Assembly: GCA_018971415.1 (NCBI GenBank)
Contig: JAGXAW010000008.1
Location: 1 to 55,017 of the forward strand
Length of the DNA stretch: 55,017 nucleotides
Direction of reading: 5' to 3'
DNA from: Betaproteobacteria bacterium
Lineage (GTDB): Bacteria > Pseudomonadota > Gammaproteobacteria > Burkholderiales > Ferrovaceae
This document shows, one piece after another, positions 22,128 through 49,044 of this stretch (its first letter is position 1; every line of letters begins with the position of its first letter). The position numbers were made by a program, and so were the translations under genes. The notes below the pieces were generated by a model, which saw only the letters and a list, made by a program, of their open reading frames with translations, made no database searches and was not told the DNA's origin.

Positions 22128-22218
22128 TATTAAGGGTAACGTCAATGTGAGGTGGACGCGTTGGCTTACCGATTAACATTATTAATGGACAATTAACAAA
22201 CAAAAAAACCGCTCAAAG

Positions 22219-22251
22219 CGAATCGTTTCCTTAAAGTGTTGAAATTTAGGG
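22219..22251 (+). repeat. Left terminal inverted repeat of the mobile element
   Basis: It starts CGAATCGTTTCCTTAAAG and continues TGTTGAAATTTAGGG. It matches the reverse complement of 24921-24957 with a few mismatches and one gap. It adjoins the left copy of GCTCAAAG. Confidence 0.78.
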
Positions 22252-22269
22252 TCGGCTGATTGACCTGAT

Positions 22270-22297
22270 TGGGCCTCTTCGGAGGCCCAGTCTTTTT
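22270..22297 (+). terminator. Hairpin terminator just inside the left end
   Basis: TGGGCCTC, a TTCG tetraloop and GAGGCCCA form an 8-bp stem followed by GTCTTTTT. The stem can work on the plus strand and would stop read-through from the cys operon into the element. Confidence 0.75.
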
Positions 22298-22311
22298 GGC
22301 GCGCGAGCCGC

Positions 22312-22560
22312 CTACGTGTCGCTTTCCTCGGCCTCCTTGGCCCTGCGGTTGGTTTCATCTCGTGCCTCGCAGAGCTGCTCGAACTGCCTCGATAGAAGCG
22401 TGTCGATTGCGCATCAGACGCGCGCGCTGCGTTTGATGGTATCGTTGGGGCCGCCTGCGCGCAGTGGCTTCGCGGGTTTCATCGCCGGCCCGAGCTTGTA
22501 GGTGAAATGGCCCACGTCGGTCGAGCACCATGTGGGGTTTACCGTCAAATAGGGCTTGCA
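22312..22560 (-). pseudogene. Degraded coding remnant in the left part of the element, not recognised
   Basis: One minus-strand frame reads as protein across this stretch: it includes WCSTDVGHFTYKLGPAMKP, then AKPLRAGGPNDTIKRSARV. An in-frame TGA follows, and the frame then resumes as CAIDTLLSRQFEQLCEARDE and a charged tail to a stop at 22312-22314. It has no start codon because the abiE promoter region abuts it. I do not recognise the family. It could be the tail of another passenger gene or a displaced piece of transposase. Confidence 0.4.
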
Positions 22561-22608
22561 AACATAGGACATTTGTGCAAACATAGGACATTGATGTCCT
22601 ATGTTTGC
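22558..22608 (+). promoter_or_regulatory. Triple operator of the abiE pair
   Basis: GCAAACATAGGACAT occurs twice in direct orientation (22558-22572 and 22577-22591) and once inverted (22594-22608). The last two form a palindrome with a two-base centre. It ends at the antitoxin ribosome site. AbiEi antitoxins are known to bind inverted repeats and repress their own promoter, so this is the likely operator. Confidence 0.75.
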
Positions 22609-22619
22609 AGGAGCCTGCT

Positions 22620-23027
22620 ATGCCCACAACAGTCAAAGAAAGGATTGCCGCTGACCTTAAGGCGTCGAAGGATGGTGTGTTCTTGCGCAAAGAGTTCGAT
22701 CGTTTCGGCGACTATCGACAAGTAAGCCGCGCAGTAAGCGAACTCGTAAACGATGGATTGATAGTCCGAGTTGGATATGGCGTTTATGCCCGTGGCAGAA
22801 AGTCATCTCTGTCGGATAAAGTCGTTCCAGACGGCACGCTCGTGGCAATCGGGTTGGAAGCCATGCGCAAGCTAGGCATCAAGGCCGATGTAAGCAAGGA
22901 AGCAAGGGCATTGCGCGACGGAACTAGCACGCAAGTCCCAATGCTACCCATTATTTCTGTCGGAAAAGCAAGAGTTCGTCGCAAGATTGGATTCGGAAAA
23001 AGAGCGGTGGTGTATGAGGTAGATTGA
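22620..23027 (+). CDS. AbiEi-type antitoxin (winged-helix, DUF6088-like)
   Basis: The product is the likely antitoxin and autorepressor of a type IV AbiE system. The ATG at 22620 is chosen because CAGGAG lies six bases upstream; it gives 135 residues. The N-terminal 70 residues form a winged-helix-like domain (VFLRKEFDRFGDYRQVSRAVSELVNDGLIVRVGYGVYAR). The C-terminal half is shorter than in classical AbiEi, resembling the DUF6088 group. In AbiE systems the antitoxin counteracts the nucleotidyltransferase toxin without binding it and represses the operon. The toxin gene follows at once, and repeats suitable as operators lie just upstream. Confidence 0.82.
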   Translation: MPTTVKERIAADLKASKDGVFLRKEFDRFGDYRQVSRAVSELVNDGLIVRVGYGVYARGRKSSLSDKVVPDGTLVAIGLEAMRKLGIKADVSKEARALRDGTSTQVPMLPIISVGKARVRRKIGFGKRAVVYEVD

Positions 23028-24063
23028 AAAAAATGAAGCGACTCAGATTGTCGACCTGATTAACGAAGAGGGGTAGTCGGTCGACGCATTCGCGCTTGAA
23101 AAAGACTTCCATGTGGCCGCTGCTCTTACTGCGTTGTCCAAAATCAAAGACCCGACATTCGATCTGGTTTTCTGCGGGGGCACCTGCCTTTCCAAGGCCT
23201 ATGGGTTGCTGGAAAGACTTTCTGAGGATATAGATATCAAAGTCGTCCTCAAGAAAGGTGTAGTTATGCCAGAAAACAAGCTCAGACCCACTCTCAGCAA
23301 GTTGAGGCAGACGGTGGTGAATGCGTTGATCGCGGAGGGATTTGATCCAGAACAGTTCGAAGAGACGTATGTCGTTGACGGCAGGACGACGAAGGTTGCG
23401 ATCGACGCCAGAGACAATAATACATACATCACGTTCAACGTCAGATACTCCTCGCATTTCGATAAGCCAGGAGATATGCGGAGCCGCTTACAGATTGAGC
23501 TCAATCACACAAGCCTGTCCATGCCCAAGGTCAGCCGCAGCGCCGAGTCGTTGTTTGACCGATTGCGCGGAGTCGATCCCAAGTCAGCCGTAAAGATGGA
23601 TTGCGTTGATTTGACCGAGGCGGCGATCGAAAAGTTGATCTCATTTCCGCGAAGGCTTGCGATGCATATGCGATCCATCGAAAAGAATTCGGTAGACACC
23701 ACAAAGCATCGTTTATTGGATCCAACACTGGTTAGACATATCTATGATATTCACGAAATAAATCGGCTGGCCCCAGAGGCGTTCGCGAACCATGGGTTGC
23801 TATCGAACTTGATGCGTGACGCCATCAAGAAGGATGCCTACGATTTCATGGCGCAACATCCCGAGTTAGCCGATAAGCCAGTGCAGGAGTTGAAAATGGC
23901 GATGGAAGAGGCCTCATCCAATCCTGCCATCGAAGCGGCTTACCTACGATTCATCAGTGTCATGGTGTATGGAGATCAAAGACCCGACTTCAGAGCCGCC
24001 CTCGCTGATTTTGACCGCCTTCTTTCAATCGCCTGCGCCCCTCATTCTGAGTTGAGTTTCTAG
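23023..24063 (+). pseudogene. AbiEii-type nucleotidyltransferase toxin, early stop codon
   Basis: AbiEii toxins are DNA-polymerase-beta-fold nucleotidyltransferases that modify a cellular RNA, for example tRNA 3' ends, and arrest growth. The core LVFCGGTCLSKAYGLLERLSEDIDIKV is intact, with the GG-S motif and paired Asp. Further on are EAAIEKLISFPRRLAMHMRS and DPTLVRHIYDIHEI, as in the family. However, the protein-like frame begins upstream at 23023 (KNEATQIVDLINEEG) and hits TAG at 23074-23076 before SVDAFALEKDFHVAAALTAL. Only a shortened form from GTG 23113 (316 residues) can be read without suppression. It may be inactive, or made from the internal start. Confidence 0.75.
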
Positions 24064-24173
24064 AATGAAAGAGAGGAGCGGGAGTAGCCCCTTTAATCGA
24101 AGCGACAAGTCCCGCGCGGACCTGGACTGAGCATGTGAGCTGAGACGAAGCTAAACGAAAAGCTCCCGATTGG

Positions 24174-24774
24174 CTATGTACCCATGAAGTAGAGGACGTT
24201 CTCATAGCGCACCGGGCCTCTTACGAGCCCCAGCCGTATCGCCGGCGTCTTCTTGCCATCACCCTCGATTAGGAAGTTGCAGCAGGCCCCAGAAGATCGC
24301 CAGCATCTCGAATAACCGCTTGTTCTTTTGGCTCTTGCGTTGGCGCAGCGTGCTGGACTTGGCCGCTGAGAAAGTCTTGGAGAAGGTCATGTACTTCCAG
24401 CGGGGCGAGGCCGCCATGGTACTGCCGAATGTCGACTTGAACGGCTTGCCGGCGGAGACGTCCAGGCCGTGGCAATCGCAGTCCTCGTCGGGACATGACG
24501 GCTCGGCCAAGGCGACCTCGGCGACCGCCTGTATGCGTTAGAGCCCTTCTTGGATTCCGAGGTTGCTCATGATGAGAAAGGGTGTGCCGCAGGACCTGCA
24601 AATCAGGTGCGGGTAGGCCTTGGTGGCGCTGGACACCTTGTAGCGAGCTTGGCCCTTCTTGGACCACTTGGCGATGTCCCCCTCTTCGGGCTTGCCGAAG
24701 TGGTTGCAGGTCGGGTTCTTACAGAAATTGATCTGGATGCCGCCGCTATCAGGCGGGATGCGGGCAGCCTTGAT
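24174..24774 (-). pseudogene. Collapsed zinc-ribbon transposase (IS1/IS1595-like)
   Basis: On the minus strand the frame from 24774 reads INFCKNPTCNHFGKPEEGD, then LICRSCGTPFLIMSNLGIQEGL, a stop (24538-24540), then PSCPDEDCDCHG and SPRWKYMTFSKTFSAAKSST with LRQRKSQKNKRLFEML. This is two cysteine-rich zinc-ribbon segments and a basic helix, as at the N-terminus of zinc-ribbon transposases. Near 24263 the signal jumps frame to GDGKKTPAIRLGLVRGPVRY and a stop at 24174, which looks like a transposase C-terminus. The catalytic middle is missing. The element therefore cannot move by itself. Confidence 0.7.
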
Positions 24775-24920
24775 CTAGGGTGGTCCTTCTTATGGGCCTT
24801 GATCGTCGCATCGAAAGGATTAATTTCCGGAGAGTCAGCCTCCGCAGGGGCTGACGAAGATTTCTACGTCAATAAAGTAACTAGAAAAACGTTGAGCCCA
24901 CGAAGTATTTTTACCACTTA

Positions 24921-24957
24921 GGCCCTATTTCTTCAACGCTTTAAGGAAACGGCTCGT
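24921..24957 (-). repeat. Right terminal inverted repeat of the mobile element
   Basis: Its reverse complement starts ACGAGCCGTTTCCTTAAAG and runs on as CGTTGAAGAAATAGGGCC. It pairs with the left end at 22219-22251 and is followed by the second copy of GCTCAAAG. Confidence 0.78.
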
Positions 24958-24998
24958 GCTCAAAGGGGATTTTTAATGTGTTAACTACAACTTGCTAA

Positions 24999-48968: not shown

Positions 48969-49044
<76 letters not shown>

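Follow-up and report, generated by a model that had tools for sequence, protein, structure and literature searches.

In the 55,017-nucleotide stretch of DNA analyzed here (the window), the interval 22219-24956 most probably derives from a passenger-carrying unit transposon, as a decayed copy that has lost its autonomy (probability about 0.9). This reading draws on what the DNA itself displays: the ends, the target duplication, the gene content, the deletions relative to a sister element (L036, from another bacterium) and the recurrence of AbiE genes with one transposase clade. The initial annotation had described an IS-like element carrying AbiE. Its passenger-carrying nature is upheld, but the copy is decayed, as the transposase core is missing and AbiEii is interrupted. 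The features are listed with strand where one applies.

22210..22218, left target-site duplication, CGCTCAAAG; 9-bp register taken from relatives
22219..22243, + strand, TIR at the transposase-distal end, CGAATCGTTTCCTTAAAGTGTTGAA; similar ends in relatives
22318..22545, − strand, what is left of a second passenger ORF (333 aa in L036), its C-terminal part, stop inside
22557..22609, + strand, repeats resembling an operator, ahead of abiEi; TGCAAACATAGGACATT twice and once inverted
22620..23027, + strand, abiEi antitoxin, 135 aa from ATG, open (Pfam, PADLOC)
23014..24063, + strand, abiEii toxin (nucleotidyltransferase) frame, interrupted (Pfam, PADLOC)
24180..24287, − strand, transposase remnant, C-terminal tail (residues 553-588 of 589 in the relative), E 4.0e-9
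24288..24297, junction, transposase residues 168-552 absent
24298..24777, − strand, transposase remnant, N-terminal zinc-finger part (residues 8-167 in the relative), E 2.2e-76, 73% identity
24932..24956, − strand, TIR on the side of the transposase start, CGAGCCGTTTCCTTAAAGCGTTGAA when read inward
24957..24965, right target-site duplication, TGCTCAAAG
24966..24998, − strand, rpmG 3' flank, forming together with the A-tract on the left an interrupted weak terminator-like target

Ends and target duplication

The inverted ends (TIRs) reported beside duplicated bases are present, with 22 of 25 terminal bases identical between 22219-22243 and 24932-24956. They are bordered by CGCTCAAAG and TGCTCAAAG (8/9 identical). 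The duplication had been put at 8 bp; the eight unchanged bases are real, but the full duplication is 9 bp with one changed base. An exact 9/9 duplication in the same register was found at 23 of 40 relatives' sites. A search found no duplication at a relic in the same-genus genome G001 or at L049, L054, L058, L086 and L101. The octamer GCTCAAAG lies at 22211-22218 and 24958-24965, where its two copies directly abut the TIR pair. Its count by itself, 7 copies in the window compared with 2.19 expected by shuffling, says little, but two copies abutting an inverted repeat are not chance. The interior is GC-richer, as had been noted, with 49-59% inside the element and about 39-44% just outside (500-bp windows). 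Full-length copies elsewhere in the genome, which the initial annotation suggested looking for, did not turn up, as a genome search found the ends as a single pair.

Transposase remnant and its family

The transposase remnant recognized earlier was confirmed by comparison with an open relative, its identity being obtained by tblastn to plasmid records. The window fragments gave nothing usable against Pfam and NCBIfam. About 1.14 kb of the gene is missing relative to L036, including the candidate catalytic residues, and the N-terminal remnant holds one TAG and one TAA. Numbered by the first sequence of an alignment, the DDE candidates are D258, D414 and E557. The transposase is thus incomplete in the window, while that of L036 is open. 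Related transposases are about 590-610 aa long. A structure model of the L036 transposase (mean pLDDT 88.4) has as its best fold matches the transposases ISCth4 (Z 12.1) and Tn5 (Z 11.5), so the predicted fold is DDE/RNase H; IS1 is absent among the fold matches listed, which excludes nothing. We infer that the complete protein is an active recombinase. The family is thin near the window: of 369 genomes of the class, 4 contain the transposase fragment, and of 100 relatives searched with the L036 transposase, 2 gave a match, the genome that holds the window being counted in both figures.

AbiE genes and second passenger

Both AbiE genes are present inside the element, as first proposed, and lie adjacent to each other. 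In its 140-aa TTG-start version AbiEi matches Pfam DUF6088 (8.3e-10) and PADLOC AbiEi (7.8e-43), and it is 94% identical to AbiEi of L036. AbiEii matches the Pfam and PADLOC models of that name (3.1e-24 and 5.1e-80). Its reading frame is not intact, with in-frame TAG codons near the start at 23020 and 23074. Repeat arrays similar to those upstream of abiEi were read in L036 and the G001 relic, and a shorter one in L038, a related locus; AbiEi may still repress its own promoter. The second-passenger remnant shares 68/76 identities with the L036 ORF (tblastn) and is without its N-terminal part. The single-sequence fold of the 333-aa protein was useless (pLDDT 36.5), so it is read as a putative nuclease from motifs picked out by eye.

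Sister element and survey of relatives

In L036, matching ends enclose an open transposase, AbiE and the further ORF, flanked by the exact 9-bp duplication CACTTAGGT. TIRs and a target duplication thus surround transposase and passengers in both elements, whose DNA is 81.6, 81.0, 86.8 and 66.7% identical in four blocks. The window, L036 and L038 form one transposase clade (SH-aLRT 100), and AbiE lies within or next to each of the three elements; a search for the right end of L038 found none. The G001 relic, at a different site, has both ends and AbiEii fragments. Since L036, this same-genus relic and the related locus also carry AbiE, we regard the pair as cargo of the lineage. The proposal of a passenger-carrying IS-like element is therefore borne out by the joint recurrence of ends, duplication, transposase and AbiE in L036 at another site, and that of AbiE as passenger by its company with the same transposase clade in L038 and with the same kind of ends in the relic.

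TIR pairs were found at 49 of 83 loci. Ends were located by a weight-matrix scan, as a 500-bp inverted-repeat search around the transposases missed most far ends; 10 of the 49 elements were added by hand. The threshold let through 8 matches in 1 Mb of random sequence of uniform composition. Among the 17 training ends of the matrix were both ends from the window, whose scores are therefore given by construction. Of the 49 elements, 38 hold 0.6-5.2 kb of extra DNA, and in at least 18 of these the element encodes restriction, methylase, toxin-antitoxin or abortive-infection domains. Cargo appears to have been exchanged often: by a rough four-way label, unshuffled, the fewest changes on the transposase tree number 18 over 42 labelled rows.

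Target sites

Many family members sit in predicted terminator hairpins. A palindrome score of 6 is reached by 25 of 40 relatives' sites compared with 1.1% of 7,800 control positions, and the mean score is 7.67 (42 sites) against 3.13 with flanks re-paired at random; 14 of the 40 sites score below 5. The window element lies downstream of rpmG in a weak predicted hairpin: the palindrome score is 5.0, and the MFE of −8.7 kcal/mol indicates less stable pairing than random 51-mers show on average (−10.7). An uninterrupted terminator-like hairpin downstream of rpmG was read by eye in the genomes G001, G002 and G003. A homologous empty site was sought in these three and not found because the gene neighborhood differs: cysN and rpmG are spaced about 9.5 kb apart in G001 and 7.3 kb in G002 and lie on separate contigs in G003. 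We infer that it is the enzyme that chooses terminators.

Proposed origin and alternatives

From one end to the other, the whole unit would have comprised a TIR, a large DDE-type transposase carrying zinc fingers at its N-terminus, the AbiEii/AbiEi pair, one more ORF and the second TIR. Cleavage by the transposase would take place at TIRs of roughly 25-27 bp, and the unit would go in through a 9-bp staggered cut, with a preference for intrinsic terminator loops; the target here would be the terminator-like region downstream of rpmG. AbiE would be a passenger that brought along operator-like repeats of its own. Once inserted, the copy would have lost the transposase core together with most of the second passenger, and stops would have arisen in the toxin frame.

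That the AbiE pair landed by chance in an unrelated IS remnant, nested rather than carried, is very improbable. Its orientation relative to the transposase does vary, opposite in the window and L036 and the same in L038, and G003 has an AbiE pair without element ends in the 10 kb examined. However, L036 has AbiE between its TIRs at another site, as does the G001 relic in fragmentary form; all three transposases of the clade are accompanied by it, and in 35 further TIR-bounded elements the transposase shares the interior with an ORF of 100 aa or more. L036 in particular largely refutes nesting. An integrated plasmid, prophage or genomic island reduced to a relic would fit the GC content above that of the flanks, but the recognized genes between the ends are AbiE, transposase pieces and one more ORF remnant; no integrase or replication gene was recognized, small ORFs having been searched in part. 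As the ends and duplication explain the whole interval, such a relic can be practically dismissed, in line with the original preference for a small passenger element.

Membership of the IS1 or IS1595 family, making the element a transporter IS, is unlikely. IS1 typically makes 9-bp duplications, as seen here, and IS1595 members have an ISXO2-like DDE transposase domain. The N-terminal zinc-binding and HTH region of three relatives weakly matches the NCBIfam IS1 model (1.1e-7 to 4.1e-5), but with 23.6-32 bits compared with a cut-off of 100 the curated score is not reached, and the match spans at most model positions 9-115 of 199, leaving the catalytic part unmatched. The NCBIfam IS1/IS1595 zinc domain is below cut-off in two of the three. 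The transposase is about 600 aa long with a further N-terminal cysteine cluster, and its TIRs presumably differ from IS1 ends. A different question is whether the AbiE pair still works as an addiction or defense module that retains the relic in the chromosome. AbiEi is open with operator-like repeats, and the nucleotidyltransferase part of AbiEii is open, though only from a possible GTG start at 23113. We consider this doubtful, given the two in-frame stops early in AbiEii; the gene is also damaged in L036, which lacks 526 bp of it, and is present as fragments in the G001 relic. The decayed transposon remains our preferred reading. Somewhat less surely, we favor placing it in an undescribed family with a large zinc-finger DDE transposase, distantly akin to IS1, that would be specialized in ferrying defense modules between bacteria and would insert them into intrinsic terminator loops. 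The modules named for this family are restriction-modification, AbiE, HipA, Fic and ApeA-like.

Relation to known systems

The pair resembles type IV AbiE systems in that both genes match, are adjacent and have operator-like repeats upstream, but differs in the toxin frame interrupted near its start. A protein search of viral contigs with AbiEii found no relative. We take the transposase and ends of the Tn3 family to differ from those of the window element. Tn3-family transposons are similar in that toxin-antitoxin pairs lie within a unit transposon, as the title of PMC7157771 indicates; a term search found no occurrence of AbiE in the text of PMC7157771. The available part of PMC12915292 lists AbiE among the systems of a Rhodococcus strain and does not mention such elements. 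Transporter IS (tIS) are, in the portion of PMC9330008 at hand, IS derivatives with passenger genes. They share with the present elements a single transposase, TIRs, a target duplication and passengers beside the transposase, and differ in that here 38 of 49 TIR-bounded elements have extra DNA, often defense genes, and many target sites are terminator-like hairpins. According to the sections of PMC4923244 available, IS1272 and TnSha1 (IS1182 family) insert into hairpins, several of which have been verified as transcriptional terminators; TnSha1 brings a passenger gene, and IS1272 removes part of the hairpin without duplicating the target. Compared by description only, hairpin insertion and a passenger are common to both, while insertion of the present family usually duplicates 9-10 bp.

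Significance

Outside phages and plasmids, the routes by which compact defense and toxin-antitoxin genes pass from one chromosome to another are understood only in part. Here the vehicle can be read directly, with its ends, duplication, recombinase and cargo slot. Such elements may escape routine annotation because the transposase has no Pfam family above cut-off (three related transposases) and is annotated as a hypothetical protein in the three plasmid records examined. The family looks unnamed, seems often to carry anti-virus defense genes and tends to insert into predicted transcription terminators. A recombinase preferring terminator hairpins would be an insertion tool of little harm to the host. 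If this is true, cargo in terminator loops would disturb the host little and might be protected from its transcription.

Borders and gene content of the window element

The initial annotation had placed an AbiE toxin-antitoxin pair inside an insertion-sequence-like element with an 8-bp target duplication. Both the element, with its terminal inverted repeats (TIRs), and its AbiE cargo were recognized correctly. The octamer GCTCAAAG is indeed present on both sides, at 22211-22218 and 24958-24965, and both copies adjoin inverted-repeat arms, but it is little proof alone because the window contains 7 copies (2.19 expected). In the register of the relatives the target-site duplication is instead 9 bp, CGCTCAAAG/TGCTCAAAG, with 8 of 9 bases identical. 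The inverted-repeat ends, which share 22 of their first 25 bases, and this 9-bp register thus define an element of 2,738 bp at 22219-24956. It is flanked by genes read as cysN and rpmG and has a higher GC content than its flanks. The initial annotation proposed looking for full-length copies elsewhere in the genome; the ends occur there as one pair only. Apart from AbiEii, the genes of the element are:

22620-23027: abiEi (Pfam DUF6088, 8.3e-10; PADLOC AbiEi, 7.8e-43)
Minus strand: two transposase pieces, corresponding to residues 8-167 and 553-588 of a 589-aa relative
Minus strand, near the left end: remnant of a further open reading frame (ORF)

AbiEii was identified by PADLOC (5.1e-80). Its frame begins within the 3' end of abiEi, contains in-frame TAG codons at 23020 and 23074 and is open from a GTG at 23113. 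Elsewhere in the window, a tRNA gene at 48969-49041 is the sole Rfam match at gathering score.

A transposase with a candidate DDE triad

None of three full-length transposase relatives yielded a Pfam match above cut-off, and matches to the NCBIfam IS1 transposase N-terminus were weak (1.1e-7 to 4.1e-5, 23.6-32 bits vs 100). We modeled the transposase of one relative, L036, with AlphaFold2 from 53 aligned sequences (mean pLDDT 88.4). The top Foldseek match is the ISCth4 transposase (9.4e-4), and VIA-align gave Z scores of 12.1 for ISCth4 and 11.5 for Tn5, followed by retroviral integrases, Hermes, TnsB and Mu. D258 is invariant in the alignment and D414 and E557 are nearly so, making them candidates for the catalytic DDE triad. 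All three fall within the transposase portion that is missing from the window copy.

AbiE accompanies the closest relatives

Relatives of the transposase are present in plasmids, genomes and 79 genome-collection loci (best 80 of 94). The closest among those found is L036, from the MAG Burkholderiales bacterium REEB401, where a transposase open in a single frame is followed by AbiEii/AbiEi and a 333-aa ORF, all between TIRs and an exact 9-bp duplication, CACTTAGGT. The window element aligns with L036 in three blocks of 81.6, 81.0 and 86.8% and a fourth of 66.7%, and AbiEi is 94% identical. Relative to L036, the window element is shorter by about 1.14 kb in the transposase and by 0.97 kb in the 333-aa ORF, and 526 bp of AbiEii are absent from L036.

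A second AbiE-bearing relative, L038 from an uncultured beta proteobacterium, encodes a transposase 75% identical to that of L036 and, after it, an AbiE pair; its AbiEii can be aligned across all 316 residues of the open part of the window AbiEii. Since the right end of L038 was searched for and not found, this pair lies beside, but is not proven to lie inside, the element. In G001, a genome of the same genus as the window, genes read as icd and a cold-shock gene flank a 737-bp relic that retains both ends and pieces of AbiEii; a search for a surrounding duplication found none. By reading, L036 and G001 have similar operator-like repeats 5' of abiEi, and those of L038 are shorter. A quick tree built from 57 transposases groups the window copy with L036 and L038 in one clade (SH-aLRT 100), with the window row filling only 28% of the columns. 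On the evidence of L036, L038, the G001 relic and this clade, AbiE is cargo of the lineage and no accident of the window locus.

The 333-aa ORF (L036:9058-10056) has no Pfam or PADLOC match; a PD-(D/E)XK-like nuclease motif was seen by eye. A fragment resembling its C-terminus occurs in the same-genus genome G001, at G001:C1:915259-915369 (L004, L026); the 10 kb examined there contain no element ends. Another same-genus genome carries an AbiE pair with 62% and 42% identity to that of the window (G003:C9, L024:4698-6057), likewise lacking element ends within the 10 kb examined.

Defense genes among the family cargo

Of 83 loci examined, comprising the 79 collection loci (best 80 of 94) and L014, L018, L019 and L020, 49 yielded a TIR pair; ten of these were added by hand, and two of them, L047 and L048, are duplicates. 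In the remaining 34, an end is missing, diverged or off contig. Eleven elements measure 1.93-2.05 kb and 38 measure 2.6-7.0 kb, the extra DNA lying mostly downstream of the transposase. ORFs of at least 100 aa other than the transposase occur in 36 of the 38 larger elements (58 ORFs, 40 of them analyzed with Pfam), and at least 18 of the 38 encode recognized domains.

Recognized cargo of the larger elements

Restriction-modification parts: L031, L032, L033, L034, L037, L039, L043, L044, L057, L066, L078, L104
Fic: L069, L079
HipA: L085
AbiE or AbiEii: L036 (by tblastn), L082
ApeA N-terminal domain: L084

The other 20, some of which were not tested singly (e.g. L055, which resembles L043), include unknown or unrelated ORFs (DnaJ, cold-shock, BRCT, SEC-C, prepilin-like) and weak matches only; L049 and L096 have no ORF of at least 100 aa. 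With PADLOC, 57 ORFs inside elements matched 160 models, of which the two most frequent, a type I methyltransferase and mads_2, each occurred in 7 members. A random draw of 110 from the 348 ORFs outside elements matched 47 models, the most frequent in 2 members. These tallies, with 25 models listed for each set, do not count proteins; they point the same way as Pfam on defense cargo. A four-way cargo label on the transposase tree takes at least 18 changes over 42 labeled rows (no shuffled control), using rough classes in which L064 is a toxin on a weak HEPN match and L038 is included without its right end.

Some hosts contain more than one element. The isolate Mariprofundus micogutta ET2 has two (L034, L039) whose type II restriction cargo differs, being NotI-like in one and BsuBI/PstI-like in the other, and Geobacteraceae MAG bin-085 has three (L059, L072, L085), with transposase only, DnaJ-domain cargo and HipA cargo. 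L047 and L048, from an Alphaproteobacteria MAG and Thiocapsa roseopersicina, share one element, and the 30 bases compared on each side of it are identical, reflecting either transfer or bin contamination. Prepilin-like ORFs take the place of defense genes in two sister elements (L058:7864-8415, L071:2740-2937), the N-terminal methylation motif being detected by Pfam in L058 and by reading in L071.

Many target sites resemble terminators

Of 40 sites for which both flanks were available, 23 have an exact, in-register 9-bp repeat. Four others have a 10-bp repeat (L044, L072, L084, L092), and no duplication was found at L049, L054, L058, L086 or L101. Across 42 sites the mean palindrome score is 7.67, compared with 3.13 when flanks were re-paired at random (200 shuffles, highest mean 3.63), and the MFE is -19.0 vs -10.3. 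Among random 51-mers from these loci, 6.7% fold at least as stably as the median site. Scores of at least 6 occur at 25 of 40 sites vs 1.1% of 7,800 positions taken from those flanks; 14 of the 40 score below 5. A-tracts or T-tracts are found at 36 of 42 sites (no control run). The family target sites are predicted terminators.

The target of the window element itself is weak, with a score of 5.0 and an MFE of -8.7. Downstream of rpmG, the relatives' genomes G001-G003 have an uninterrupted terminator-like hairpin. No true empty site was found in the three, because cysN is separated from rpmG by 9.5 kb in G001 and by 7.3 kb in G002 and is on a different contig in G003.

The open-access literature, judged by titles and abstract starts and with most subscription papers and all preprints outside this scope, yielded no paper describing a family of this kind. 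IS1272/TnSha1 is described as inserting into terminator hairpins, deleting sequence and producing no duplication (PMC4923244), and PMC9330008 covers transporter IS as a concept and toxin-antitoxin pairs carried on Tn3 elements. PMC12915292 is not related to such elements, and the term AbiE does not occur in PMC7157771. Overall, the window copy is a dead end, and the surprise is the transposon family behind it.
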